64,000 nt of DNA from an uncultured Myxococcales bacterium (GCA_903919145.1 CAIXGW010000157.1:1-64000); one strand, 5' to 3'. Shown: positions 1 to 58,244, counted from the first letter of the stretch. Notes: a model not told the origin generated them from the sequence alone. Numbers and translations: made by a program.

Positions 1-1467
1 CGGATTGCAGCTATCGGTGGTGCAGGGGTTCTTGTCGTCGCAGGTCGGCGCACCGCCAGAGCACTTGCCCTGGCTGCACACATCGTTCTGGGTGCATTGG
101 TTGCCATCGTCGCACAGGCCAGTGGTCGGGGTCGAAGTGCACCCGCTGTTGGGGACGCAGCTGTCGTCGGTGCAGAGGTTGCCGTCGTCGCATTCTTTGG
201 GCGAGCCCTGGCAGCTCTTGGCAAAGCAAGAATCGCCTGAAGTGCAGGGGTTGCCGTCGTCGCAGGCGCCCGACAGCGAGGTGTAGGTGCAGCCCTTGCT
301 GGAGCTGCAGCTGTCGCCAGTGCACGGGTTGTTGTCATCGCAGTTGATGACGTTGCCAAGGCAGTTGCCTCCAGAGCAGGCGTCGTTGTTGGTGCAGCCG
401 TCGTTGTCGTTGCAGCTCACCGAATTGTACTTGCTAGAGCAGCCCTTGTCTGGGGCGCAGGCGTTGTCTGTGCAGGCGTTGGCGTCGTCGCAATTGACGC
501 TGGGAAGGAAGTTCTCTCCGCCCGGGGCACACACAAAGAAGCTCTGGGCCGAGCCGCAGCCGTTGGTGGTGCAAATCGGTTGCTTGCACTGGCGGTTGCT
601 GCCGCACACCTTGCCCACCGGGCAGTCCTCTGCGGTCAGGCAGTCGACACAGTAGCCGAGGTCGGCGTCGCAGACCTTGTCGCATTCCTTGCTGCTGGAG
701 CACGGTTTGGCGGCAAAGCACTTGTTGGCCATGCACGCAAACCCTGCGCCGCAGTCGCCTGGCACGTTGCAGTCCACGCATGCGCCCACCGTCTTGCTGC
801 ACACCTGCTTGGTCGCTTTGCAGTCGACGTCAGATTTGCAGCTCGGCGCGGCGACGCACTGCTCGCCAATGCAAGCCTTGCCGCTGCCGGGGCAGTCGCT
901 GCTGGTCAGACAGGCCACGCAGCTGCGGGTGGCACCATTGCAGACACCTGTTTTGCATGGATTTTTGGCATCGCAAGGGCTGGCTTGCAGGACGCAGCCG
1001 GCCACCTTGGCGTGGCTGCACTTGCCGCCTGCGCAGCTGTCGGTGGTGCAGGAGTCGCCGTCATTGCAGTCGCTGGCCTTGCTGCATGCGGATTGAACGG
1101 CGTCTTTGCCGCCGGAATCGCCAGCGGTGTCGCTGCTGGCCGCATCGCTGCCCGCAGTGTCGCCGCTCGGGCCGTCAGACAAGGCCGAGTCGGCGACGCT
1201 GCCGTCTTGCGGGCCACTGTCAGCGCCGCTGCCGTCTTCTGCCGTGGTCAGGTCGCCCACGCCGTCGGCGCCGGCATCCTGCACAAAGTAGAAGCCAGAA
1301 TTGACGCTGCCGCTTGGCGAAGTGCACGCCGGCGTCAGCGCCAGTGCCGCGGCGGCGAGCCACAGCCACTGCCGCCGAGATCGGCTGGGTCCACGCTTGT
1401 TGTCGCCCTGGGCGGTGCCTTGCGGCAGCTCTGCGGTCCGTGCCAGTGCATCAATGCCTGCCCCCAT
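1..1467 (-). CDS. Cys-rich repeat lipoprotein, C-terminus beyond window edge (partial)
   Basis: An open frame of 489 codons runs to the first base of the window without a stop, so the C-terminus lies outside. The N-terminus has a twin-Arg-containing basic stretch, a hydrophobic segment and a lipobox ending LTPAC, which indicates an exported lipoprotein. After the lipidated Cys comes a linker of about 75 residues rich in Asp, Gly, Ser and Ala. Then follow two kinds of Cys-rich repeat: first modules of the SxxDCPxGxxC...CVxC kind (roughly nt 990-600), then DGNxCTxxDxC modules that continue to the edge. The start is uncertain: in-frame ATGs lie at 1497, 1485 and 1467, in a Gly/Met-rich stretch with no clear ribosome binding site, and an in-frame stop lies about 35 bases above the first. 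The larger Cys-rich lipoprotein ends about 100 bases upstream on the same strand, so the two may be cotranscribed. The function is unknown; surface display is an inference. Confidence 0.85.
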   Translation of the reverse strand, partial: MGAGIDALARTAELPQGTAQGDNKRGPSRSRRQWLWLAAAALALTPACTSPSGSVNSGFYFVQDAGADGVGDLTTAEDGSGADSGPQDGSVADSALSDGPSGDTAGSDAASSDTAGDSGGKDAVQSACSKASDCNDGDSCTTDSCAGGKCSHAKVAGCVLQASPCDAKNPCKTGVCNGATRSCVACLTSSDCPGSGKACIGEQCVAAPSCKSDVDCKATKQVCSKTVGACVDCNVPGDCGAGFACMANKCFAAKPCSSSKECDKVCDADLGYCVDCLTAEDCPVGKVCGSNRQCKQPICTTNGCGSAQSFFVCAPGGENFLPSVNCDDANACTDNACAPDKGCSSKYNSVSCNDNDGCTNNDACSGGNCLGNVINCDDNNPCTGDSCSSSKGCTYTSLSGACDDGNPCTSGDSCFAKSCQGSPKECDDGNLCTDDSCVPNSGCTSTPTTGLCDDGNQCTQNDVCSQGKCSGGAPTCDDKNPCTTDSCNP

Positions 1468-1567: not shown

Positions 1568-4500
1568 CTAGGGCCGCTGCGCCACCGGATAGCCCACGCA
1601 AAACCCTGACTCCGCCCCTACATCGGCGGGCTGGCTGCATTTTTGCGACCGCGGCCGCCGCAGGGAGACCCGCGACCAGTCGGCGGCGTTGTCATTGCTG
1701 TCTTTGCCCGCCCCGGCAAAGAACACTCCGCTAAAGGGGTCGGCGATCTCGGCCTTGCCCCCCACCACAGCCAGGCGCCGCAGCGCCCCGCCCTGACCCG
1801 TAGAGCATATCTTGGAAACCTGGGTCGCAACAGAGGTCTTGCCCTCGCCGTCATTGGCCTTGGCAGCGCCCCAGGCCAGCCGATCCAGCTCGCCGTTGCC
1901 CCAAGAGTAGCTGCCCTGCAGGCGCGCGAGGCGCACGGCTCCAGCGGTGCCATCCATGTTCCACGGCACGGCGCTCAGGTAGTCCGGCGGCGGCAGCGTG
2001 CCGTCGTGTTGGGCGGGCGCCAGCAAGTAGTAGGAGTAGGGAGCGACGCCGCCACTCAGCGGCTTCTTCTTGACGTCGCTGTCCGTCACCGTCTTCCAGC
2101 TGGTGCTAGAGGTGCCCTGGACCTGCAGGACCAGCGCATCGGTGATCTGCTTGACACCATTGACGGTCTCTAGCTTGGCTAGCTGGATGGTGCTGGGCGA
2201 AGGGTTGTAAAGCACCACGTACTCGTTGGCGGCTGGAATCAGCGCCTGGCCGTTCTGGTCGGTGGCTTGGCCGCCCTCGGTCGTCACTTCGGCAAGCAGC
2301 AGCTTCAGATCGCAGGCGCCCGTCTTGGGGTTGCAGCCAAGGCCCAGGTCGCAAGGCACGCCGCACAGAGGATCAATGCACAGCTGACTGCCGCTGGTGG
2401 CAAAGTTGCAGACAAGGCCCGCCGGGCAGGTGCCACTGCACGCCGGCTCATACACGCCGGACCCCAGGGACTGCGGCGACGGCTCGCTGACCACAAAGTC
2501 CACACTGTCATTGGCAGAATCTGCAGCATTGCCAGCCAGATCGTCGCCACCTCCAGGCGCCATGGTGCTGCTCTTGGACGTGGGCTTGGCCTTGCGCTCC
2601 AGCGACTGGCCCAGCTTGGGCTCCACTGCGGCCTTGTACATCGGCCCGGTCGAGGCGTTGGAGTAGGCCTTGGCGTTGCCCCAGCCCATCAGGTCGACTT
2701 CGGCATCGCTGGCGGGGTCCCACAGCCGCAGCGCGCCGCCCTTGGCCTCTACCATCGCCACCGGCACCACCACGTCGGTCTGGCCGTGGGTGCGCGCCCA
2801 CGACTGGGTCGCCACCACCAAGTAGCGCTTGGGCGGCAGCACCGTGCCAGCGGGCAAAGTGCTCAGGGTCACGATCCACGGGGTGTACGGCTCGTTCTCT
2901 GCGTTTTTGCGCTGTAGCTTCCAGCCGCTGGCGTTGATGGTCTTGGCCGAAGCGTTGTACAGCTCAATGTACTGCTCGCCATCGGCGCCAAAGTACACTT
3001 CGCTGACCAGGACGGTGCCCAGAGGATCCGGGACGCACTGGGCCAGGCCTTGTCCGCACACCTTGCCGGGCCCGCAGGCCGTGGCTGCACTGGCGCCAAA
3101 GGACTTGCATTCCAGATCCTCGGTGCACGAGTCTGCACCGGCTTTGAAGTTGCAGACCTTGGTCACGCCGCAGTAGCCACCGCATGCGGGCTCGTACTTG
3201 CCACTGCTTTGCGACTGCGGCTCTGGCCACCAGCGCACCACAAAATCCTCGGCGTCGCTGTCGGTGTCCTTGCTGTTGCCCGCCAACCACTCGGCCTTGT
3301 GCTGGTACATGGTGTTGGCGTCCGAAAGGGCCGTCGCCTTGCGCTCTACCGAGGCAAACCGCGGCCACGCTTCCTGGCTGGCATCGATGGGAGAGAGTCC
3401 CTTGGGCACCTGGGCCGGCTGGCCGTCGTGCCACGCCACCCGGTCGTGCTCCAGCTGGTGCAGAGGATCGCGCAGCCGCAGCTGCAGGTGGCGCTTGGAA
3501 TCTGTCAAGCAGTCCGCCGCGGATTCCGGGCTGGCCAGCGCCATCTCCAGGTCCAAGGTGGGCGACGCGGTGTCGGTAAGGACGCCGTTTTGCAGCAGGG
3601 TACTGCGCGAAAACAGCGCATAGCCCTTGGGAGCCAGCAGCGCTCCGGGCTTGCCCTTGGCCAACACCGTCCAGGCGGCCTTGGGCTGTGCGTCCAGCGG
3701 GCGCGCCTCAAGCTGGAATTCCTCAAGCTTGGCAAACTTGTCGGTGGGGTTGTAGATCTCCACCCAGTCGTCGTTGGGATCGCCCGCGGTTCCCAGATAG
3801 ATCTCGCTGATCAGCACGTGGGCGCCGCCCTTGAACTCGCAAACGGGCTGGTCCGTGCTGGAGCACGCTGCAAAAGACCCGCAATCGCCCGTTGTCTTGG
3901 CGTTGATGCAGCCGCTGCCGGCCTTGCAGCTGTCCGCCGTGCACACGTTCTCGTCGTCGCAGGTGTTGGGCTGGCCCTTGCACACCGCGTTGGCGCAGGT
4001 GTCCTTTTCGGTGCAGGCGTCCTGGTCATCGCAACCGGCAGTCGAGTCGCTGTGGGTGCAGCCGGCCTTGGGCTCGCAGGCGTCGGTGGTGCAAGAGTTG
4101 CCGTCGTCGCAGCCGGTCTCAGTCCCCGGGGCGCACAGGCCGACCTGGCACAAGTCATTGCCAGTGCAGGCATTTCCGTCGTCGCAGGCCTTGCCGTTGA
4201 GGGGGACCTTCTGCTCGCAGCCCAGCGAACTGCCCACCTGCGCGGACGTCGCTGTTGGATTGCACGGGATCTCAATGCACGGGTTGTCTGAGGTGCAGGT
4301 CTTGGCAGCGCCGCCATCGCACTTGCCAAAACCGCTGCAGCCATCTTGGGTCATGCCAGCTTTGCCGAGATCACCGGTGCATGCGTTGCCGTCGTCGCAG
4401 CTGGTGCCCTTGTCGGCGGCGAGGTAGGTACAGCCCAGGCCCTTGTCACAAGAGTCCACCGTGCAAGGGTTTTTGTCGTCACACGTACCGGGCTTGCCCA

Positions 4501-6868
4501 CGCAGTAGCCACCTGTGCAGACCTCATCGGTGGTGCACAGCGATCCGTCGTCGCAGGGCAGCTTGTCTACGGCGCTGCCATCGTGTTTGCAGGCCTCGGC
4601 GGTGGTGGCGGCGCTCTCGTCGCAGCTGTCTGAGGTGCAGGCCAGGCCGTCGCTGCAGGGGTTGTCATCGCCGCTGCACTGACCCTTGAGGCAGCGGTCG
4701 AGCACGCTGCAGTACAGCCCGTCATCGCAGGGGCTGTTCTCTGGCAGGCTGGCGGTAGAGCACTGGCCAGTCAAGGGGTTGCAGGCCGTCAGCAAGCAAG
4801 GCTTCTTGGCATCGCCGGCGCAGGCGGGCACTTTGTCGCCGTCGTACTTGCAGCTGTTGTTGTTGGTGTCGCAGTACCACATGCCCTTGCACTTGTCGGC
4901 CGCGGCTACAGCGGTGCAGTCGTCGTCGGACTTGCAGCTGCACAGGTTGGGGCCGGGCTGGCACAGGCCGTTTTGGCACTGGTCGGGGCCGCTGCAGCCG
5001 TCGCCGTCGTTGCACGGAGCGGTCGTAGGCGCGCTGACGCAGCCAAACAGCGGCGAGCACGAGTCGGCGGTGCACGGGTTGCCGTCATTGCAGACCACCG
5101 CGAACTTGCCCTTGCAGACGCCGGCGCTGTCGCAGGAGTCGCCCAGGGTGCACGCGTCGCCATCCTGGCAGAGCAGGCCTGCCTGCTGGTTGACGGAATT
5201 GCACTTGCCCGTCGCCGGATCGCAGCTGTTGAGGCTGCACGGCGTGCTGGGGGGGCACTGAACTACCGAGCTGGCGGCGATCTGGCAGGCGCCGCCGATG
5301 CACTTGAGGGTGCCGTTGCACAGGTTGGCGTCGTTCTTGGCCGTGCAGTCGGCGTCGCTGGCGCAGGTGCAGCTGCTCTGCATCTCGCCCTTGCACTGGC
5401 CATCGATACACAAGTCACCTATCGTACAGGAGTTTCCGTCATCACACAGGTAGACCACCGCCTTGTGCTGGCAGCCCTTCTTGGCGTCGCAGCTGTCTGA
5501 CGTGCACAGGTTGTTGTCGTCGCAAGAGCGCTTTCCACCGCTGCCGATGCACTGACCGCCTTGGCACTGATCGGCCACAGAGCAGGCGTCGCCGTCGCTG
5601 CAGGCGCTGCCGTTGGTCGCTGGCTTCTTCTCGCAAGCGCCGTTCTTGGGGTTGCATTGGTTGACCAGGCAGGCCGTGTCGCCCGTCGGATCGCAAAGAA
5701 TGCTGCCGACCTTGTCGAACCAGACCACGCTGTTGCTGTCGGTCACGCAGGTGCCAGAGACGCACTTGACCTCGCCGTTGCACAGGTTGCCGTCGTCAAA
5801 GGCCAAACAGTCTGAGGCTTTGTTGCACTCGCACTTGTTCACCGACCCCGGCTTGCACTTGCCGTAGTAGCAGGCGTCTTCGTCGGTGCAGGCGTTGCCA
5901 TCGTTGCACGGCGTGTCATTCTTGGCGTTGGTGGTCACGCAGCCCTTCACCGGGTCGCACGAGGTGATGGTGCAGTGCTGACCGTCCTTGTCAGCGCAGG
6001 TCTTGGTCCAGCCCTGGCAGACGCCTTTGTGGCAGCTGTCTCCGTCCGAGCAGGCGTTGCCATCGGTGCACGCCACGCCGTCTTGATCGGCGACGTACTG
6101 GCAGGCCTTTGAGCCGCCAGCGCCGGCCACGCAGCGCAGCAGCTGGCAGGACTTGTTGGGGCCGACGCAGTCGTCATCGGTCTTGCACGGGTCTTTTTCG
6201 CCGGCCACCGGCAGGACCAGGCCATCGGGCAAGTAGATCGCCCCGCCCGCCGAGCTGTCGCCGTCGCCGGGCAGTACATCCCATTGGGCTTCTGGGGGAA
6301 TCGGTACAGAGGCGCCATCGGCCAAGAGGATCGCGTCGGGCAGCAGCGGCGGTCCCAGGTCGGGCGCGGTGTCGATCACTTCTGCATCGTCACTCTGCAG
6401 ATCGGGCAGTTCGTCGCCATCGCTGCCGGTCTCGGCATCGGCAGGTTCCTGGTCATCGACTTCGGCGGCGCTGGCGTCCCCCTGGTCTGAGCCATTGGAA
6501 TCCTGAGAGTCTTTGCTGTCGGGCTGGGTGTCGACCTTGACCTCGGCCTTGGCGTCGCCATCGGCTGCGTCGGCGCCTTTGGCGTCTTGGCTGGTGTCGC
6601 CGACTGCGGCGTCGCTGCATTGGGCGGCGGGCGGCTCTAGTGAGCACGGGTCTGGGCAGAAGTCCTGAGCGGGGTCGTCGACGCACGGGCAGCCTTCGCC
6701 GTAGGGTTCGTCGTCGCAGGGGTCAGCAAAAACCGTGTCCGGCTTTGGTTTCTCTGTTCCAATGCCCAGAACTTCGCAGCCACAGAGCGCGACAGCCAGC
6801 GTCAGCCAGACGCCGCAGAGCAGCCAGCGGCGGTTGGCGAAGATGGGTCGATGTTGGGCTTGGGGCAT
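1568..6868 (-). CDS. Large Cys-rich repeat lipoprotein with three C-terminal lamin-tail-like domains
   Basis: 1766 residues. Basic residues and a hydrophobic segment lead to a lipobox with Cys31 (LCGC), followed by an acidic Asp/Ala/Ser linker to about residue 170. Residues of roughly 220-1010 hold about 19 modules of the C-x(5)-CT-x(3-4)-C type (for example CDDGNACTGNDLC), spaced by GKC/GxC turns. The C-terminal 700 residues differ: three segments beginning VLISEIYLG, VLVSEVYFG and LLLAEVTTE, each followed by an E-x-YN(P/A) strand, match the lamin tail domain (LTD) pattern. They start near residues 1017, 1283 and 1523 and are separated by short Cys-containing linkers (YEPAC...). LTDs in bacterial exported proteins are associated with surface or nuclease proteins, but no nuclease motif is seen here. 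The start is the ATG before the signal peptide. It is transcribed divergently from secA. An adhesion, matrix or structural role is inference. Confidence 0.9.
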   Translation of the reverse strand: MPQAQHRPIFANRRWLLCGVWLTLAVALCGCEVLGIGTEKPKPDTVFADPCDDEPYGEGCPCVDDPAQDFCPDPCSLEPPAAQCSDAAVGDTSQDAKGADAADGDAKAEVKVDTQPDSKDSQDSNGSDQGDASAAEVDDQEPADAETGSDGDELPDLQSDDAEVIDTAPDLGPPLLPDAILLADGASVPIPPEAQWDVLPGDGDSSAGGAIYLPDGLVLPVAGEKDPCKTDDDCVGPNKSCQLLRCVAGAGGSKACQYVADQDGVACTDGNACSDGDSCHKGVCQGWTKTCADKDGQHCTITSCDPVKGCVTTNAKNDTPCNDGNACTDEDACYYGKCKPGSVNKCECNKASDCLAFDDGNLCNGEVKCVSGTCVTDSNSVVWFDKVGSILCDPTGDTACLVNQCNPKNGACEKKPATNGSACSDGDACSVADQCQGGQCIGSGGKRSCDDNNLCTSDSCDAKKGCQHKAVVYLCDDGNSCTIGDLCIDGQCKGEMQSSCTCASDADCTAKNDANLCNGTLKCIGGACQIAASSVVQCPPSTPCSLNSCDPATGKCNSVNQQAGLLCQDGDACTLGDSCDSAGVCKGKFAVVCNDGNPCTADSCSPLFGCVSAPTTAPCNDGDGCSGPDQCQNGLCQPGPNLCSCKSDDDCTAVAAADKCKGMWYCDTNNNSCKYDGDKVPACAGDAKKPCLLTACNPLTGQCSTASLPENSPCDDGLYCSVLDRCLKGQCSGDDNPCSDGLACTSDSCDESAATTAEACKHDGSAVDKLPCDDGSLCTTDEVCTGGYCVGKPGTCDDKNPCTVDSCDKGLGCTYLAADKGTSCDDGNACTGDLGKAGMTQDGCSGFGKCDGGAAKTCTSDNPCIEIPCNPTATSAQVGSSLGCEQKVPLNGKACDDGNACTGNDLCQVGLCAPGTETGCDDGNSCTTDACEPKAGCTHSDSTAGCDDQDACTEKDTCANAVCKGQPNTCDDENVCTADSCKAGSGCINAKTTGDCGSFAACSSTDQPVCEFKGGAHVLISEIYLGTAGDPNDDWVEIYNPTDKFAKLEEFQLEARPLDAQPKAAWTVLAKGKPGALLAPKGYALFSRSTLLQNGVLTDTASPTLDLEMALASPESAADCLTDSKRHLQLRLRDPLHQLEHDRVAWHDGQPAQVPKGLSPIDASQEAWPRFASVERKATALSDANTMYQHKAEWLAGNSKDTDSDAEDFVVRWWPEPQSQSSGKYEPACGGYCGVTKVCNFKAGADSCTEDLECKSFGASAATACGPGKVCGQGLAQCVPDPLGTVLVSEVYFGADGEQYIELYNASAKTINASGWKLQRKNAENEPYTPWIVTLSTLPAGTVLPPKRYLVVATQSWARTHGQTDVVVPVAMVEAKGGALRLWDPASDAEVDLMGWGNAKAYSNASTGPMYKAAVEPKLGQSLERKAKPTSKSSTMAPGGGDDLAGNAADSANDSVDFVVSEPSPQSLGSGVYEPACSGTCPAGLVCNFATSGSQLCIDPLCGVPCDLGLGCNPKTGACDLKLLLAEVTTEGGQATDQNGQALIPAANEYVVLYNPSPSTIQLAKLETVNGVKQITDALVLQVQGTSSTSWKTVTDSDVKKKPLSGGVAPYSYYLLAPAQHDGTLPPPDYLSAVPWNMDGTAGAVRLARLQGSYSWGNGELDRLAWGAAKANDGEGKTSVATQVSKICSTGQGGALRRLAVVGGKAEIADPFSGVFFAGAGKDSNDNAADWSRVSLRRPRSQKCSQPADVGAESGFCVGYPVAQRP

Positions 6869-44423: not shown

Positions 44424-44624
44424 TCTCAGCCGGCGACACCCCAATAGAGTCGGAAACATGGCCACGGCCAATCCTTCAGGCAGCGGGCAACCGCCTTGGA
44501 CATCATCGCGGTTCACGGGAATTGGTGCAACCCAGGCCGGCCAGCGCGGTTTGGCGAACCGGCCGCGGGTACAGCGAGCCGGGACCCGGCGAAAACACCT
44601 CGCCGAGCCCCAGCCAGCTCTTGG

Positions 44625-47600
44625 CTACTGCAAAGCCGCGCAGCCCGTGCACAGCGTGCTGTAGGTCGCCAGCTCGCACTTGATGATCTTGCTGCCAGAC
44701 AGGCACGTCGATGCGGCGTTGAAGGTCTTGGTGCAGCCAGTCGTCGGGTTGCACGCGTCGATGGTGCAGGCGCAGCCATCGTTGCAGACAACCTTGACGA
44801 GGCCGGCCGTGCACTTGCTAAGGACGCACTTGTCTCCGCTGGTGCACTTGTTGCCGTCGTCGCAGGGCAGCGAGTTGGGCGTGATAACGCACTTGCCGGC
44901 GGTGTCGCAGGCGTCGGTGGTGCAGACATTGCCGTCATCGCAAGGCGTGGTGGCCTTGGGGGTGCACTTGCCAGCTACGCAGATGTCGCCGGTCGTGCAG
45001 TTGTTGCCATCGCTGCAGGCGGGGCCGCTGGCTGCCGCAAAGCTGCAGGTTCCGCTGGGGGCGGTGCAGCTGTCGGTGGTGCAGGGGTTGTTGTCGGTGC
45101 AGAGCTTGGGCTTGCCCGGCAGGCACTTGCCCAGCGAGCAGAGGTCGCCCGTCGTGCAGCCGTTGCCGTCATCGCAGGCGTCCAGGTTGTTGGTGTGGAT
45201 GCAGGCTCCTGTGAGCGTATTGCAGGAGTCGGTGGTGCACGGGTTCTTGTCATCGCAGTCTTTGGCCACGCCGCCGCACTTGCCGTTGGCGCAGGCGTCG
45301 GGCGAGGTGCACAAGTTCTTGTCGTCGCAGACGGCCTGGTTGCTGGTCCAGGTGCAGGTACCGGTGGCCGCGGTGCAGCCGTCGGTGGTGCAGAGGTTGC
45401 CGTCGCTGCAGTTCTTGGCGAGGCCCGCCTTGCAAGCGCCAGCCGAGCAGGCGTCATTGAGCGTGCACTTGTTGCCGTCTTCGCAGCCCAGGGTGTTGGG
45501 CTCGCTGACGCAGCCCTTGGTTGCCGCGCACAAGTCGGTGGTGCACAGGTTGCCGTCGTTGCAGTTGGGAGGGGAGCTGCCAATGCACTTGCCGACCACA
45601 CAGCTGTCTACCGTGGTGCACAGGCTGCCGTCCGAGCAGGGCGTGGCGTTGAGCGCCTTGTAGACGCACAGACCGGTGGCAATGTTGCACGAGTCGACCG
45701 TGCAGTCGTTCTTGTCATCGCAGTTGACCACCAGGCCGGGGATGCACTGGCCATTGGTGCAGGCATCGTTGGCGGTGCACAGGTTGCCATCTTCGCACTT
45801 GCCGGCCGCGGCCTTGTTGACGCACTTGCCGGTCGCAGCGTCGCAGGAATCGGCGGTGCAGACGTTCTTGTCGTCGCAGTTGGTCGTGCTGACCGGGGTG
45901 CACTTGCCGTTGGCACAACCGTCGCCAGCGGTGCACTCGTTGTTGTCGTTGCAGGGCAGGGTGTTGGGCGAGATGAGGCACCCGCTGGCGGGCTGACACG
46001 CGTCAGTCGTGCAGATGTTGTTGTCATTGCAGATCACCACAGAGCCGGTGCAGTTGCCCAGGGCGCACTTGTCGCCAGTGGTGCAGGCGTTGCCGTCGGT
46101 GCAGAGCTTGCCGTCCAGTACCGAGCTGAAGGTGCAGGTGCCTTTGCCGGCGACGATAGCGCAGGTGCCGATCTGGCAAACATTGGTGGTGACGCACTGG
46201 GTGCTGCTGGTGCAGCCGCAGCCGGTAGCGACGCCGACGCACTTGCCCAAGCTGCACTTGTCGCCGGTGGTGCAGGCGATGCCGTCATTGCACAGCGCGG
46301 TCGAGTTGCCCTGGAACAGGCACTGGCCGGTCGAGGGGCTGCACAGGTCGTCGGTGCAGGGGTTGTTGTCGTTGCAGTTGGTCGTGGTCTTGGGCGTGCA
46401 CTTGCCGGCGGCGCAGACTTCGCTGAGGGTGCACAGGTTGTTGTCGTTGCAGGGCAGGGTATTGACGGCAAAGATGCAGGCGCCAGTCGAGGTATTGCAG
46501 CTGTCGGTCGTGCACGGGTTGTTGTCGTTGCACGCCGTGGCCGTGCCGGTGCAGACGCCGGCGTTGCAGGTGTCCTTGCCGGTGCACAGCAAGCCGTCGT
46601 TGCACGGCGAGGTATTGTTCAGGAACTGGCACTTGCCGCTGGTGGGCACGCAGCTGTCGGTGGTGCAGCCGTTGCTGTCATTGCAGGTCACCGCGGGCTT
46701 GCCAATGCACTTGCCGGCGCTGCAGGAGTCGCCAGCGGTGCACAGGCTCTTGTCATCGCAGGGCAGGGTGTTGGCGACCTGGCTGCACTTGCCGGTCAGC
46801 TTGTCACAGCTGTCATTGGTGCAGGCATTGCCGTCGTCGCAGTTGACGCTGGCGGCGCCCACGCACTTGCCAGAGACGCAGGCATCGGGGCTGGTGCAGG
46901 CGTCGCCGTCATTGCAGGTGCCGGCGGCCGAGGCGTAGGTGCACAAGCCAGTGCCGCTATTGCAGGTGTCGGCGGTGCAGACGTTGCCGTCGTCGCAGTT
47001 CTTCTTGCCAGTGGGGGTGCACTTGCCGGCGCCGCAGGTGTCGCCGGTGGTGCAGGCATCGCCGTCCGAGCAGGCCGTGGTCAGGTTGACAAAGGCGCAC
47101 AGGCCGGTGGCAGCCACGCAGCTGTCGGCGGTGCAAGCGTTGCCGTCGTCGCACTTCTTGGCGATGCCCAGGCACTTGCCGGCCACGCAGCCGTCGGTCG
47201 CCGTGCACAGGTTGTTGTCATCGCAGCCACCGCTGATGTTGGTAAAGAGGCACTTGCCGGTGGCCTTGTCGCAGCTGTCGACGGTGCAAGGATTCTTGTC
47301 ATCGCAGCCCACGGTCTTGGGCACGCAGGCGCCGGCCGTGCTGCAGATGCCGCCGGTGGTGCAGAGGTTGCCATCGTCGCAGGCCACGCCAGAGGTGACC
47401 TTGTGGACGCAAACGCCGGTCACGCAGGCATCGGCGGTGCAAGGGTTGTTGTCATTGCAGACAATCGCGGCGTTGGCAGTGGTACACGGGCAGCTCTGCA
47501 CGCCGGCCTGGCAGGCGCCGTCTTTGCAGGTGTCACCCTTGCTGCAGCTGTTGCCGTCCTCGCAAGGCAGGCTGTTGTTGGCAAAAGTGCAGTTGCCGGT

Positions 47601-50600
47601 CTTGGCGTCGCAGGCATCGGTGGTGCAGAGGCTGCCGTCTTCGCAGTTCTTGGCGGTTCCGCCGCAGGTGCCGGCTTTGCAGACGTCGCCGGCGGTGCAG
47701 GCTGAGTCATCATTGCACGGAGCAGTGTTGGGCGCATTGACGCACTTGCCGGTGGCGCCGTCGCACTTGTCGTCGGTGCAGGGGTTCTTGTCGTCGCAGC
47801 TCTGCAGGGTGCCCGGCTTGCACAAGCCGCTGGCGCAGAGGTCGCCCACGGTGCACAGGTTGCCGTCGGAGCACAGCTCGGTGTTGGGCAGGGCGACGCA
47901 CAGGCCGGACTTGTTGTCGCAGCTGTCGGTCGTGCAGGGGTTGTTGTCGTTGCAGGCCAGCTGCGGGCCGGCCACGCACTTGCCGGTGGTGCAAGCGTCG
48001 TTGACGGTGCAGGGGTTGCCATCGCTGCACGAGCCGGCGGCCGGGGTAAAGACGCAGTCGCCCGTCTTGGCGCTGCAGCTGTCGGAAGTGCAGACATTGC
48101 TGTCGGTGCAGGCCTTGGGCTTGCCGGCGGTGCACAGCTTGTTGTTGCAGAGATCGGCCAGGGTGCAGGCATTGCCGTCTTCGCAGGGCGCGCCGTTGTT
48201 GGTGGTGTAGGTGCAGCCGAGCTTGGCATCACAGGCGTCTTTGGTGCATGGGTTCTTGTCATCGCAAGAGAGCAGAGCTCCGGCGGTGCACTTGCCGTCT
48301 TTGCACAAGTCGTTGGCGGTGCAGACGTTGCTGTCGGCATTGCAGGGCTTGCCCTCGTCGGTGGGCTTGGCGCCGCACTTGCCGGTGACGCCGTCGCACT
48401 GGTTGCTGATGCAGGCCGCCGTGCTGGGCGGGCAGGTCACCACTGTGGCGGCGTTGACCTTGCAGGCAAAGGGCATGGCCGACTTGTCGCACACCAGGGT
48501 GCCGTTGCAGAGGTTGCCGTCTTCCAGGCCCTTGCAGTCCGAGTCCGCTTGGCAAGCGCAGGAATTGGTGCCGGCGGTGCACTTGCCGTCTTTGCAGGCG
48601 TCGTTGGCGGTGCAGGCGCTGCCGTCTTCGCAAGGCGCGTCGTTGTTGGCGTGGGTGCAGCCGGTGTTGGGGTCGCAACCGTCTGTGGTGCAGGGGTTCT
48701 TGTCATCACAGGCCACCGTCGGGTCGCTGGCCAGGCCGGCGCAGCTGCCGTTGACGCACTCGTCAAATTCGGTGCAGGCGTTGCCGTCGCTGCAGGGGGC
48801 CTGGGTGTTCTTGTGCTGGCAACCGGTCTCACCGTCGCAAGCATCGATGGTGCAAGGATTTTTGTCATCGCAGTCGATTGGCGCGCCGTCACAGCCTTTG
48901 GCGGTGCAGACTTCGGCTTCGGTGCAGGCGCTGTCATCGTCGCAGCTGGCGCCGATGGCCTTGGGCGACAAGGCGCAAGAGCCATCCAGCGGGTTGCAGG
49001 TGGCCGAGGCGCACGGATCGGTGCTGGTGCAGACCTTGGGCGCGCCGGCGGTGCACTTGCCGCCCGAGCACTTGTCAGCCGTGGTGCACAGGTCGCCGTC
49101 TTCGCAGCTGGCCGTGTCGTCGGCCGTAGTGGTGCAGCCGGTAGCGGCATCGCAGGCGTCGTCCGTGCACGGATTGTTGTCATTGCAGTTGATCGCGGTG
49201 CCGGTGCACTTGCCGGCCTTGCAGGCGTCGCCGCTGGTGCAGACAGAGCCGTCTTGGCACTCGGTCCCGTCGGCGAAGCCAGTGCTGGCGCACTTGCCGC
49301 TGCTCTTGTCGCAGCTGTCAGCGGTGCAGGGGTCGTTGTCGTTGCAGTCCAGCAGGACACCGGCCTCGCAGGCGCCGGCGACGCATTTGTCAGCGGCTGT
49401 GCAGGCATTGCCGTCGGCATCGCAGGTGGTGTCGTCGGCTACGTTGGTCGACTTGCAGCCGCTGGCCGGATCGCAGGCGTCGCTGGTGCAGGCATTGTTG
49501 TCATTGCAGGACTTTTCTTTGCCACCGCTGCAAGCCCCGTCTTTGCAGGCGTCGCCTTCGGTGCAGCCGTTGCCATCGCTGCACTGGGCGTCGGCGGGAG
49601 CGTTGACGCAGCCGCCCTTGACCGGGTCGCAGCTGTCGGCAGTGCAGGGATTGCCGTCGGCGCAGGTTTGCTCGTCGGTCTGGCCGTCGCAGTCGTTGTC
49701 CTGGCCGTCGCACAGGTCCGGGGTAGGGGTGCCCGCTGAGCACTGGCTGAGGCCGCCGGCTCCGCAGCTGCGCTTGCCGCTGCAGGTGCCGGCTTCGTTG
49801 CCGATGCTGCAAGTGGTCGACATCGCAGCGGCAATCGCTTGGTCGCTGCACTTGCAGGTGCCCGGGGCGGTGGCGCCGGCCTTGTCTGGAGCTGCCACGC
49901 AGCGCATGGCCTTGGTTGCGGTGCTGTCTGCCATCTCCAAGCAAGCCAAGCCAGCGGCGCACTTGTCGTCAGCGCCGCACTTGGGCGCGCAGAACGAGCC
50001 GGCCTCGGCGCTGTACTGAATGCACGCAGAATCGGCGCCACATTCGCTGTCGGCCGTACAGGGGTTGCAGGCGGTGCCGGTCAGTGCCGTGCCGTCGGGC
50101 GAGGCGATGTCGGCATCGGGGCTGCCGGTGCCGTCTTGACCCGTAGCGTCGCCGCTCGCGTCATCGGCGGCCGCGTCTGAAGACCCGCCATCGTCGGTGC
50201 CGGCGTCGGAGCCCGTGCTGTCCTGATCGGTGCCGGAGGTATCCTGATCGGTTCCTGCGGCGTCCTGATCGGTGCCAGCAGCGTCTTGATCGGTGCCAGC
50301 AGCGTCTTGATCGGTGCCCGCGGCGTCCTTGTCGGTGCCGGTGGCGTCCTGATCGGTGCCGGCGGCGTCCTTGTCGGTGCCGGTGGTGTCCTGGTCGGTG
50401 CCGGCGTCTTTGTCAGTGCCGGTACTGTCTTGATCGGTGCCCGCAGCGTCCTTGTCGGTCGCCGAGGTGTCCAGATCGGTGCCATCCGCTGTAGTGCCGT
50501 CGGTGCCGGCTGCGGTATCCGTGCCTGGGCTGCCGTCTTGCGAGTCACTGGCGGCGGTGTCCGTCGGGTCCACTGCGTCGCCGGCGTTGAGGTCCGCGAC

Positions 50601-50750
50601 TGCGGCGTCGGTGCTTGTGTCGCTTTGCGAAGGTTCTGTCCCTTCAGAAGCGGTGTCGCCGCAGCTCGCCAGAGCCACCACCAGGGCCCCTAGCGCAAGG
50701 TACCCAGCGTGACGAAGAGAGCTTCTACAGAAATTCCTCGACAAATTCAT
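44625..50750 (-). CDS. Giant Cys-rich repeat lipoprotein with about 59 alternating modules
   Basis: 2041 residues. AGGAAAGTC precedes the ATG at 50750, and a lipobox VALASC places the lipid on Cys30. Residues of about 31-210 form an acidic Asp/Ala/Thr/Ser linker, including eleven TGTD(Q/K)DxA heptads. A Cys segment (CNPCTADSECG, CADGLACL-type) and a DGQDNDCDGQTDE MopE-like calcium-binding motif precede the repeats. By eye about 59 modules follow, alternating between a C-x(5)-C-TxDS-C form ending TGxC and a C-x(5)-C-TxxDx-C form ending GKC. Each has four cysteines. The C-terminus ends in TLCTGCAALQ with no sorting signal. Exported, heavily disulfide-bonded and rod-like is the likely nature; adhesion or surface-layer function is inference. 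Confidence 0.9.
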   Translation of the reverse strand: MNLSRNFCRSSLRHAGYLALGALVVALASCGDTASEGTEPSQSDTSTDAAVADLNAGDAVDPTDTAASDSQDGSPGTDTAAGTDGTTADGTDLDTSATDKDAAGTDQDSTGTDKDAGTDQDTTGTDKDAAGTDQDATGTDKDAAGTDQDAAGTDQDAAGTDQDAAGTDQDTSGTDQDSTGSDAGTDDGGSSDAAADDASGDATGQDGTGSPDADIASPDGTALTGTACNPCTADSECGADSACIQYSAEAGSFCAPKCGADDKCAAGLACLEMADSTATKAMRCVAAPDKAGATAPGTCKCSDQAIAAAMSTTCSIGNEAGTCSGKRSCGAGGLSQCSAGTPTPDLCDGQDNDCDGQTDEQTCADGNPCTADSCDPVKGGCVNAPADAQCSDGNGCTEGDACKDGACSGGKEKSCNDNNACTSDACDPASGCKSTNVADDTTCDADGNACTAADKCVAGACEAGVLLDCNDNDPCTADSCDKSSGKCASTGFADGTECQDGSVCTSGDACKAGKCTGTAINCNDNNPCTDDACDAATGCTTTADDTASCEDGDLCTTADKCSGGKCTAGAPKVCTSTDPCASATCNPLDGSCALSPKAIGASCDDDSACTEAEVCTAKGCDGAPIDCDDKNPCTIDACDGETGCQHKNTQAPCSDGNACTEFDECVNGSCAGLASDPTVACDDKNPCTTDGCDPNTGCTHANNDAPCEDGSACTANDACKDGKCTAGTNSCACQADSDCKGLEDGNLCNGTLVCDKSAMPFACKVNAATVVTCPPSTAACISNQCDGVTGKCGAKPTDEGKPCNADSNVCTANDLCKDGKCTAGALLSCDDKNPCTKDACDAKLGCTYTTNNGAPCEDGNACTLADLCNNKLCTAGKPKACTDSNVCTSDSCSAKTGDCVFTPAAGSCSDGNPCTVNDACTTGKCVAGPQLACNDNNPCTTDSCDNKSGLCVALPNTELCSDGNLCTVGDLCASGLCKPGTLQSCDDKNPCTDDKCDGATGKCVNAPNTAPCNDDSACTAGDVCKAGTCGGTAKNCEDGSLCTTDACDAKTGNCTFANNSLPCEDGNSCSKGDTCKDGACQAGVQSCPCTTANAAIVCNDNNPCTADACVTGVCVHKVTSGVACDDGNLCTTGGICSTAGACVPKTVGCDDKNPCTVDSCDKATGKCLFTNISGGCDDNNLCTATDGCVAGKCLGIAKKCDDGNACTADSCVAATGLCAFVNLTTACSDGDACTTGDTCGAGKCTPTGKKNCDDGNVCTADTCNSGTGLCTYASAAGTCNDGDACTSPDACVSGKCVGAASVNCDDGNACTNDSCDKLTGKCSQVANTLPCDDKSLCTAGDSCSAGKCIGKPAVTCNDSNGCTTDSCVPTSGKCQFLNNTSPCNDGLLCTGKDTCNAGVCTGTATACNDNNPCTTDSCNTSTGACIFAVNTLPCNDNNLCTLSEVCAAGKCTPKTTTNCNDNNPCTDDLCSPSTGQCLFQGNSTALCNDGIACTTGDKCSLGKCVGVATGCGCTSSTQCVTTNVCQIGTCAIVAGKGTCTFSSVLDGKLCTDGNACTTGDKCALGNCTGSVVICNDNNICTTDACQPASGCLISPNTLPCNDNNECTAGDGCANGKCTPVSTTNCDDKNVCTADSCDAATGKCVNKAAAGKCEDGNLCTANDACTNGQCIPGLVVNCDDKNDCTVDSCNIATGLCVYKALNATPCSDGSLCTTVDSCVVGKCIGSSPPNCNDGNLCTTDLCAATKGCVSEPNTLGCEDGNKCTLNDACSAGACKAGLAKNCSDGNLCTTDGCTAATGTCTWTSNQAVCDDKNLCTSPDACANGKCGGVAKDCDDKNPCTTDSCNTLTGACIHTNNLDACDDGNGCTTGDLCSLGKCLPGKPKLCTDNNPCTTDSCTAPSGTCSFAAASGPACSDGNNCTTGDICVAGKCTPKATTPCDDGNVCTTDACDTAGKCVITPNSLPCDDGNKCTSGDKCVLSKCTAGLVKVVCNDGCACTIDACNPTTGCTKTFNAASTCLSGSKIIKCELATYSTLCTGCAALQ
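44703..49700 (-). repeat. Cys-rich two-module coding repeat array
   Basis: Within the giant lipoprotein the modules CDDKNPCTTDSC (A) and CSDGNLCTTGDLC (B) alternate over about 5 kb. The A-B pair is about 50 residues (150 bases). Copies diverge at synonymous and spacer positions, so this is an old, frame-preserving coding repeat. Confidence 0.85.
50213..50461 (-). repeat. 21-bp minisatellite coding TGTD(Q/K)DxA heptads
   Basis: On the plus strand the unit reads like GTGCCAGCAGCGTCTTGATC. Eleven copies encode GTDQDAA, GTDKDAA, GTDQDTT or GTDQDST. One copy is six residues long. The array spans residues of about 97-180 of the giant lipoprotein. Confidence 0.88.
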
Positions 50751-56143: not shown

Positions 56144-57757
56144 CTAGCGCTTGCCCGGCTTTGCTGCGGCCTTGGCTTCCGCCAACAAGCTGCGCAGCCA
56201 CGGCTCGGCCTGGTCCAGTGTCCAGCCAGTCCCCTTGTGGATGCCGCGCAGCCGGCCCTGGTGGTCGACAACCAGAAAAGTCGGGACACTCTCAGTTTCA
56301 AGCACTTCCATGGCATCTGGCCCGACCCAAGCCACCGCTGGTCCGCCGGCAAGCTGGTCCTTGACGTAGTCCTCCAGCGCCTGCTCATCGCGATCAATGC
56401 TGGCTGCCACCACCACCAGCCCGTCAGCGGCCAAGCGCGCGTGCAGTTCTGCCACCTGCGGCGCCGTAGCTCGGCACGGTCCACACCACGTCGCCCACAC
56501 GTCAATGAAAAGCACCTTGCCGGCAAGGGTTTCCGGCGCCTTGGCCATGCCGAACCAGCGGGTTACTTGCAGGGGCGGCAGGCCCTGGCCGATGCGCGGA
56601 TCCTGGGCCCAGTCCAGAGCGGGGGCCGGGGCAGCTGGGGGCGCCTTGGCCGTGAGCTGCAGCTGGGTAGGGGCCCCGTCGCTGGCCAGAGGCTCTGCTG
56701 GCGCCACCAATTCAAAGGAAAAGGACACGTCGCGGCCGGTGCCGGCAACGGCCGGTGCCAGCGACACCACCCGATAGCGGCCCTTGGGAACGCTGAAGGC
56801 GACCAGGCCCTTGTCGTCGCTGACGGCGGTCTTGGTGTCCAGGGTGACCCCGCCTTCGTCGCCGAGCTTGAGGGCAAGGCGGGCCTTGGCGACCGGCTTT
56901 CCCGCAGAGGTCAGCTGCAGGCTCAGCTGGGCGGGGCCTTGCCAATTCTGGGTTTTGCGGGTGGCTGCCGCCCGCGGCTTGACCAGGGTTGGCCAGGGCG
57001 GCGCCACAGCCAGCCAGTCGCCCGCGGGCTCATGTACGGGCAGGTTGCTGGAGGTCACCCACACCGCACCGTCAGCCTGGGCGCGCAATTCAAGCTTCCA
57101 ATCAGCCAGTTGAAGGGTAGCTCCCTCTTTGGGGTCCACGGCAATCAGGCCCTGGCCACTGGTCGCCGCTGGCCCTCCGAGCGGCTGCTGCAGCGGTGCC
57201 GACCGCCAGACGTAGCGCAGCGGCTTGCCGGCGACCGCGGTCTCGCTGAACTGCACTCCCAAGTTGAGCTGGGCGCCACTCGAAAGGAGGGCAAAACCAC
57301 TGCCGACCGCCATTGGCGCCTTGGCTTGGCCGGGAAACATCCGGTCCAGCAGCTCGCGGACCACCACCATGCTGAGGTTGCCGGCGCCGCGCCGGACTTC
57401 AATTTCACAAGAAGTCCCGGGCTTGCCGCGCACGTGCTCGGCGACTTCGGGGACTTTGGCGCCGGCAGGCACCGCCCAGGTGTCAACGCGCAGCAGCTGG
57501 TCGCCTGGCTGCAGCCCGGCGCGATTGGCTGGGCCGCCGGCGACAATTTGCTGGCAGAACACGCCGTTGGCCTTGGCCTCAAGGACCAGACCTACGCCGC
57601 CCTGGCCCTGCTCTTTGGGCTTGGGCTGCGCGGCCACAAACGGCCAGCGCGGCGACGGCGGCACCGGCGCGGGCTTGACGGGCTCGGCCAGCACCACCGC
57701 GGTCAGGGGAGGGAGGGTACAGAGGAAGACGGCGGCGAGGAGGCGATGGTATAGCAT
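56144..57757 (-). CDS. Exported PDZ and TlpA/thioredoxin-domain fusion protein
   Basis: 537 residues with a signal peptide (LLAAVFLCTLPPLTAVVLA). A PDZ domain (about residues 50-120) contains GGVGLVLEAKANGVFC and GGPANRAGLQPGDQLLRVD. A middle beta-rich region with SAGKPVAKARLALKLGDEGG and GLVAFSVPKGRYRVVSLAP resembles a carboxypeptidase regulatory-like fold. The C-terminal domain (about 395-525) is TlpA/AhpC-like: LFIDVWATWCGPCRATAPQ with Cys425 and Cys428 as the redox pair and ESVPTFLVVD as the cis-Pro loop. It is probably a periplasmic thiol-disulfide reductase with a protein-binding PDZ module. It starts 10 bases after the response-regulator stop, so both are in one transcript. Confidence 0.88.
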   Translation of the reverse strand: MLYHRLLAAVFLCTLPPLTAVVLAEPVKPAPVPPSPRWPFVAAQPKPKEQGQGGVGLVLEAKANGVFCQQIVAGGPANRAGLQPGDQLLRVDTWAVPAGAKVPEVAEHVRGKPGTSCEIEVRRGAGNLSMVVVRELLDRMFPGQAKAPMAVGSGFALLSSGAQLNLGVQFSETAVAGKPLRYVWRSAPLQQPLGGPAATSGQGLIAVDPKEGATLQLADWKLELRAQADGAVWVTSSNLPVHEPAGDWLAVAPPWPTLVKPRAAATRKTQNWQGPAQLSLQLTSAGKPVAKARLALKLGDEGGVTLDTKTAVSDDKGLVAFSVPKGRYRVVSLAPAVAGTGRDVSFSFELVAPAEPLASDGAPTQLQLTAKAPPAAPAPALDWAQDPRIGQGLPPLQVTRWFGMAKAPETLAGKVLFIDVWATWCGPCRATAPQVAELHARLAADGLVVVAASIDRDEQALEDYVKDQLAGGPAVAWVGPDAMEVLETESVPTFLVVDHQGRLRGIHKGTGWTLDQAEPWLRSLLAEAKAAAKPGKR

Positions 57758-57767
57758 TGGCAGCAGC

Positions 57768-58244
57768 CTAGGGACTCGGCGGCTCTGGGTCAACTGGCTT
57801 AGTGGCCCCGGGGGCAAAGGGTGGCGCTGCGGCCTGAACGACTGCCCGAATTGCGGCCCGCAACTCCGCTATGTCAAAGGGCTTCGCCAGAATCGGCCGG
57901 CCAGTGGCCCGCAAGCGGTCTTCAGCTTCGCCGGCCCATACCCCGCCCGTCACAAAGACCATTCGTTCGGCTTGCGCGGGGCGGCTGGCCGCCAGGGCTT
58001 CAAACAGCGCAAAGCCAGACAGCTCGGGCATATTTACGTCGGTCACAACGGCATCAAAGAACTCGGTCTGCAGCAACCGCAGCGCTGCGGCGGCGCTGAC
58101 CTCGATGCGGACGGCGTGCTCGCCCGCCAGCACCCGCTGCAGGATGCTGGCCACCAGCGGGTCGTCGTCGACTACCAGCACGGCAGCGCGCCGGGTAGCC
58201 TCGGTCAGCGCTGGAGCGGTCGGCGGATCGGGGCTTTCCGGCAT
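57768..58244 (-). CDS. Single-domain response regulator
   Basis: 158 residues. GGAGG ends four bases before the ATG at 58244. The receiver domain has the acidic pocket VVDDDP (Asp26-Asp28), the phospho-acceptor Asp69 in VTDVNMPELSG, the Thr of VFVTGG and the Lys of ILAKPF. Beyond it only a short Pro/Ala-rich tail remains, so there is no DNA-binding output; it probably acts by protein contact. It is flanked by a lipoprotein upstream and a PDZ-thioredoxin gene downstream. The nearest histidine kinase is at 61271-63205. Confidence 0.92.
   Translation of the reverse strand: MPESPDPPTAPALTEATRRAAVLVVDDDPLVASILQRVLAGEHAVRIEVSAAAALRLLQTEFFDAVVTDVNMPELSGFALFEALAASRPAQAERMVFVTGGVWAGEAEDRLRATGRPILAKPFDIAELRAAIRAVVQAAAPPFAPGATKPVDPEPPSP

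Follow-up and report, generated by a model that had tools for sequence, protein, structure and literature searches.

A gene at positions 44625 to 50750 (minus strand) of a 64,000-nucleotide stretch of DNA from an uncultured Myxococcales bacterium (GCA_903919145.1, CAIXGW010000157.1:1-64000; the window) is predicted to encode a lipoprotein of 2041 residues, most of which is an array of small cysteine-rich modules of two types, A and B, that alternate almost without break. Given the way in which cysteines are lost together in arrays of this kind, we consider it probable that this is an outer-surface lipoprotein, the bulk of which forms a rod covalently stapled by disulfides from each module to the next.

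Modules were assigned by cysteine spacing alone, type A being C-x5-C-x4-C-x5/6-C and type B C-x5-C-x5-C-x4-C. A strict parse yields 60 modules, 29 of type A and 31 of type B, which follow one another as ABAB; the type switches at 57 of the 59 transitions. None of 20,000 shuffles reached this number (maximum 45), which rules out a random order and bears out the near-unbroken alternation of two module types that a first-pass annotation had read from the sequence. The BBB run that a naive parse places at residues 1487 to 1550 is not a genuine break but arises from an A module of the usual kind (C VTTNV C QIGT C AIVAGKGT C) that has a leader with two cysteines (CGCTSSTQ) in front of it. The array ends with a further A module, residues 1989 to 2006, and is unbroken save for one inserted module of a third type (residues 731 to 772). 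The large array had been correctly recognized, with its size revised here from about 59 modules and 29 units to 61 modules plus the insert, or about 30 A-B pairs. The same alternation, as had also been claimed, is present in the 1766-residue protein encoded at 1568-6868, in which 20 of 21 transitions alternate (reached by 2 of 20,000 shuffles). The two spacings are real, but not all A modules end in TGxC nor all B modules in GKC, as initially described; more robust markers of type are T-x-D-x-C (A) versus T-x-G-D-x-C (B), together with the position of the Gly ahead of the fourth cysteine. Two CxC leaders and the third module type were absent from that description. The latter has the spacing CxC-x5-C-x8-C-x5-C-x4/8-C and occurs once in the 2041-residue protein, but recurs in the 1766-residue protein and in relatives. 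The gene and the arrays of the window are laid out as follows.

44625 to 50750, minus strand: giant lipoprotein gene (2041 residues), ATG at 50750 with the ribosome-binding-site-like sequence GAGGAAAG just 5′
50661 to 50750, minus strand: putative signal peptide with lipobox LAS-C (Cys30), from inspection of the sequence by eye
50070 to 50660, minus strand: Thr/Asp-rich low-complexity tether with GTDQDAA repeats, residues 31-227, from sequence
49665 to 50069, minus strand: N-terminal cysteine-rich stretch, residues 228-362, with the MopE-like motif CDGQDNDCDGQTDE at its end, from a profile match below cut-off
44733 to 49664, minus strand: module array, residues 363-2006, alternating A (PF00526-like) and B, 61 modules and one of the third type, from the spacing parse, profiles and AlphaFold2
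48435 to 48560, minus strand: third-type module, residues 731-772, CxC leader, short helix, then hairpin, from sequence and AlphaFold2
47460 to 47492, minus strand: CxC leader CPCTTANAAIV ahead of the A module at residue 1098, from sequence
46197 to 46220, minus strand: CxC leader CGCTSSTQ ahead of the A module at residue 1519, source of the false BBB, from sequence
44625 to 44732, minus strand: C-terminal cap, residues 2007-2041 (35 residues), with four further cysteines, and stop codon, from sequence
3905 to 6169, minus strand: second array, residues 234-988 of the 1766-residue protein, with A/B alternation and repeated third-type modules, followed by Lamin Tail Domains
43 to 492, minus strand: third array of this type, in an open reading frame (ORF) that exits the left edge of the window (stop-to-stop ORF from about 1545)

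The coordinates first given for the gene hold, with the start at the ATG at 50750 and GAGGAAAG immediately 5′; a longer ORF that reaches 50996 is an upstream extension of the same frame. A lipobox, LAS-C at residue 30, lies behind a hydrophobic stretch and, on inspection, marks the protein as a bacterial lipoprotein, presumably exported and lipidated. The match to Cu-binding_MopE (PF11617; E=3e-4, 21.4 bits) of the motif that ends the cysteine-rich stretch falls short of the curated cut-off of 27 for membership.

Single A modules belong to the Pfam family PF00526 (Dicty_CTDC), with 35.1 and 36.4 bits against a curated cut-off of 27, and 28 stretches of the whole protein match the family (E=1e-100). 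Three single B modules fall below the cut-off, one without a match and the others with 18.1 and 11.6 bits. From 1120 strict A-B pairs in 120 ORFs, the consensus of A is C-[DN]-D-G-N-P-C-T-x-D-x-C-D-P-x-x-G-C and that of B is C-D-D-G-N-A-C-T-x-G-D-x-C-x-x-G-x-C. The first half is common to both, the difference being the position of the third cysteine and the hairpin behind it, and the Asp residues of both are 92-98% conserved. A sequence search of the PDB gave only a weak, chance-like match to fibrillin (E=1.3) and a low-complexity match to an ice-binding protein, both of which were rejected as homologs, and no similarity to the Entamoeba Gal/GalNAc lectin.

In the genome from which the window derives (7.0 Mb, 404 contigs), strong PF00526 matches are found in at least 66 open frames of up to 3554 residues, counted by hand among the best 150 matches listed; three of these frames are in the window. 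Matches were found in 52 of the 53 genomes in a search of relatives and, in a sample of the phylum at E<=1e-8, in all 22 listed genomes of the class versus 16 of 91 others. The named relatives are mostly uncultured Myxococcales and Deltaproteobacteria assemblies, which makes an uncultured Myxococcota the most likely host. Typical A-B arrays are also present on contig CAMDBH010000066.1 (L028) of a metagenome-assembled genome labelled Klebsiella pneumoniae, for which the bin or the label is probably wrong. Searches of phage and plasmid records gave no match, and a mobile origin was rejected, with a single remote viral contig remaining.

In the same genome, 94.7% of the junctions between neighbouring strict modules join an A to a B (51 ORFs, at loci picked by the A profile only), as do 98.3% in relatives of the same family; a value of 97% for the loci of the contig search is biased because the query itself was ABABAB. 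In sister families of the class, giant proteins are A-rich, with 190 AA, 95 AB or BA and no BB neighbours (33% alternation). There are, therefore, two array architectures, alternating and A-rich, both with few or no B-B neighbours. The A-B pair, proposed in the annotation as the real unit, is consequently not obligatory, as the sister families build A-A-A-A arrays, but stands as a sequence grammar in this lineage.

The alternation might be a neutral relic of an ancestral A-B dimer that was duplicated often, with no requirement for A to lie next to B. The register is kept in many arrays, and duplication of larger blocks does happen, as L082 and L129 have many tandem copies of a ~305-residue higher-order repeat composed of several A-B pairs and one third-type module. 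Within the array in the window, however, repetition at the DNA level is near nil (five repeated 24-mers in 4.9 kb), so recent tandem expansion is ruled out as the cause of the regularity. Similarity between modules is also independent of lag, and the A-B phase has thus been kept while the sequences diverged. A relic is further disfavoured because the modules are old, with near-zero DNA identity, and yet the phase is perfect, and because an abundance of AA without any BB in the sister families suggests a constraint on the neighbours of B. We regard a purely neutral origin as rather doubtful.

Disulfide partners should vanish together, and on this premise about 5,100 modules were examined for joint losses of their cysteines (C1 to C4 of module i). 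In A modules of array interiors, there are 23 double losses of C1 and C4 versus at most 4 apparent losses of C1 alone (Fisher p about 3e-37, with orthologs and paralogs counted). These 23 double losses come from at least seven separate proteins, so independent events are fewer. Losses of C1 or C4 singly, as counted by regular expression, are upper bounds, since matches in a shifted frame and long C3-C4 loops inflate them. Overall, 29 C1 and C4 co-losses were observed versus 2.6 expected. The missing cysteines are often replaced by Val, Ile, Tyr or Leu, as exemplified by V-DDNNACTTDSCDPKTGK-I and Y-DDNNRCTEDYCDRSTGQ-W. In the giant AAAA proteins of sister families (L149, L144, L145 and L147), loss of C1 and C4 is recurrent, often to Val, Ile, Tyr or Trp, and there are apparent breaks in the chain of staples.

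Between neighbours, C2(i) and C3(i+1) are lost together in two proteins, L156 and L146, versus 0.009 expected, with a third case (L011) found by eye; the reverse combination, C3(i) with C2(i+1), was never seen in the same module set. Of 5 leaders preceded by a loss of C2, 4 have a single cysteine instead of two, as opposed to 0 of the 209 that follow an intact C2 (p=6e-8; the latter figure follows reclassification by eye of seven misparses), and L144/L145 and L147 provide further examples. Of 16 arrays whose start follows a stretch free of other cysteines, 12 have a single-cysteine leader; the array of L116 starts without a leader, and its first module lacks C3. Terminal modules without C2 also occur (L120, L075). 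Together, these patterns indicate C1-C4 bonds inside A modules and C2(i)-C3(i+1) bonds between neighbours. The pattern of an outgoing bond from C2 is also seen for B modules (L156, L146, L043 and L057), in which a C1-C4 bond would follow by elimination.

AlphaFold2 predicts one β-hairpin per module for three A-B pairs (87 aligned in-register segments; predicted local distance difference test, pLDDT, 96.3; predicted template modelling score, pTM, 0.70), long in A (8-13/18-23) and short in B (39-41/44-46). In the model of a segment with the third-type module (pLDDT 94.7), a short helix precedes the hairpin. With Foldseek, neither model had a significant match in the PDB; the top match of both is the heavy chain of the Entamoeba Gal/GalNAc lectin (E=0.03 and 0.05), at best a weak match to the arm of that protein (E=0.03, probability 0.63). 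The disulfide plan had been drawn up before the 2026 structure of the lectin arm was consulted (PMC12948311).

Several observations weigh against this plan, or against its likeness to the lectin arm. No double loss of C1 and C4 was found in B modules of array interiors. C2 is lost without evident loss of a partner in L101, L048 and L146 (residue 1566), several losses of C3 retain C2(i-1), and 17 array ends retain C2 without a downstream cysteine. Foldseek scores are weak overall (E 0.03-0.4, template modelling score below 0.3), and the Entamoeba paper, as worded, has C2 reach the neighbour on the N-terminal side and C3 the one on the C-terminal side, opposite to the direction proposed here (PMC12948311). 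The strand layout by itself would also be compatible with a C3-C4 bond that spans the hairpin and with proximity of C2(i) to C1(i+1). A rod stapled in this second way, with C3-C4 cross-strand bonds within modules and C2(i)-C1(i+1) bonds between them, was our first reading of the leader data, as the first cysteine of a CxC leader occupies the spot of C1 in a regular module, and in the AlphaFold2 models, by strand assignment, C3 and C4 appear to face each other on the hairpin strands (A 12/19, B 40/45). It was dropped on the co-losses: C1 vanishes with C4 and not with C2(i-1), C2(i) vanishes with C3(i+1), and the leaderless first module of L116 is without C3, not without C1. This pairing is, in our view, unlikely. 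Storage of copper or calcium by reduced cysteines or Asp ligands, to which the conserved Asp residues and the weak match upstream of the array to MopE (putatively metal-binding) could point, is very improbable for what appears to be an exported lipoprotein whose cysteines vanish in specific pairs and have hydrophobic replacements, which fits disulfides and not metal clusters, and calcium binding by Asp could in any case coexist with a disulfide rod.

The preferred structure is then one in which each ~25-residue module would be a small β-hairpin closed by C1-C4, with C2 bonded to C3 of the following module, so that a disulfide would cross every module boundary. The eight-cysteine A-B pair would therefore not be a closed disulfide unit, as the bonds would also cross the boundaries between pairs. 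A fixed topology and a linear array, both suggested in the annotation, are supported. A and B, however, probably pair identically, an outcome that the annotation had named as counting against its proposal; the putative staple from C2(i) to the next module is seen from both types, with C1-C4 indicated for A alone. The two would be variants of one module that alternate in this lineage, C3 being shifted by one residue and the hairpin differing in length. A CxC leader would splice into the inserted module, its first cysteine bonded to the previous C2 and its second to the module's own C3, leaving the chain of staples intact, and a single-cysteine leader would cap the start of an array. The result would be one stiff filament, tethered through the lipidated N-terminus and the disordered Thr/Asp linker. 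The 2041-residue protein retains every C2 and C3, and each of its three leaders has both cysteines, and therefore no hinge is predicted along its 60-odd modules; for the sister families, a natural break would be expected in A-rich proteins where a C2-less module is followed by a single-cysteine leader.

Other proteins of the same genome fuse arrays to NHL propellers, β-propeller (SBBP) repeats, InhA-like MAM domains and Lamin Tail Domains, consistent with arrays as spacers, or stalks, that hold out binding domains. Without such a fused domain, the 2041-residue protein may itself be a matrix fibre or adhesin. In a 2406-residue frame of this genome (L126), arrays are interspersed with long non-array stretches, one of which, when tested, was an NHL β-propeller; these arrays end with C2 present and no cysteine downstream. 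Elsewhere in the window, a PDZ and thioredoxin-like protein encoded at 56144-57817 (minus strand), near the cysteine-rich lipoprotein gene, may have a link to disulfide formation. On the plus strand at 44496-50019, the long ORFs (1069, 309, 423 and 602 residues) that face the array are unlikely to be genes and resemble antisense shadows of the codon pattern in the array.

It is conceivable, and we propose it tentatively, that these arrays follow a hitherto undescribed self-stapling rod grammar with two hairpin variants, a ban on consecutive B modules, leaders that act as caps or splices, and at least 60 genes in one genome, with a disulfide plan common to amoebozoan matrix and adhesion proteins (Dictyostelium CTDC, Entamoeba lectin) through common descent, gene transfer or convergence. 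The PF00526 repeat itself is already known; what is added here is a concrete, testable disulfide plan, derived from co-losses, for a repeat that bacteria share with the matrix proteins of slime moulds, and a grammar of A, B and third-type modules. The plan connects a PF00526-type repeat with the arm of an amoebic adhesin whose structure was solved recently, and it suggests that stiffness and the positions of hinges can be read from alternation, caps and breaks in the sequence. One bacterial class has dozens of genes for such arrays per genome, with no known function.

In the literature library searched, neither the A-B alternation nor a PF00526 disulfide plan was described in any paper found, nor was a solved PF00526 member found in the searches made. 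One related system is that of the Myxococcus TraA repeats (TIGR04201), for which some resemblance to PF00526 was noted in 2012 when a rigid stalk was proposed (PMC3325183); TraA is a myxobacterial surface kin-recognition receptor with cysteine-rich tandem repeats. The 2041- and 1766-residue proteins differ from it in having no TIGR04201 (NCBIfam) match at E<=1, and no PA14 domain or MYXO-CTERM was found in them. In Dictyostelium, PF00526 occurs in extracellular-matrix proteins and in signal proteins (PMC4931340), such as EcmA/EcmB, PsiA and PsiF, which likewise are secreted and have tandem cysteine-rich repeats, and to which the A modules are related above cut-off. The family model, however, describes type A only, without A-B alternation, leaders or a third module, and the arrays described here are in a bacterial lipoprotein. 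For the arm of the Entamoeba histolytica Gal/GalNAc lectin, the published text describes pseudo-domains of 20-35 residues with four cysteines, bonded C1-C4 inside and by C2 and C3 to their neighbours, the inter-domain bonds 'rigidifying the arrangement' and missing ones being suggested to give flexibility (PMC12948311). These pseudo-domains are three-stranded, and no A/B alternation is reported in the same text, but as far as that text goes, the arc and arm of the heavy chain (PDB 9gja/9gjb/9gjc) resemble the array proposed here in having four-cysteine β-modules, the same class of disulfide topology and an elongated form.

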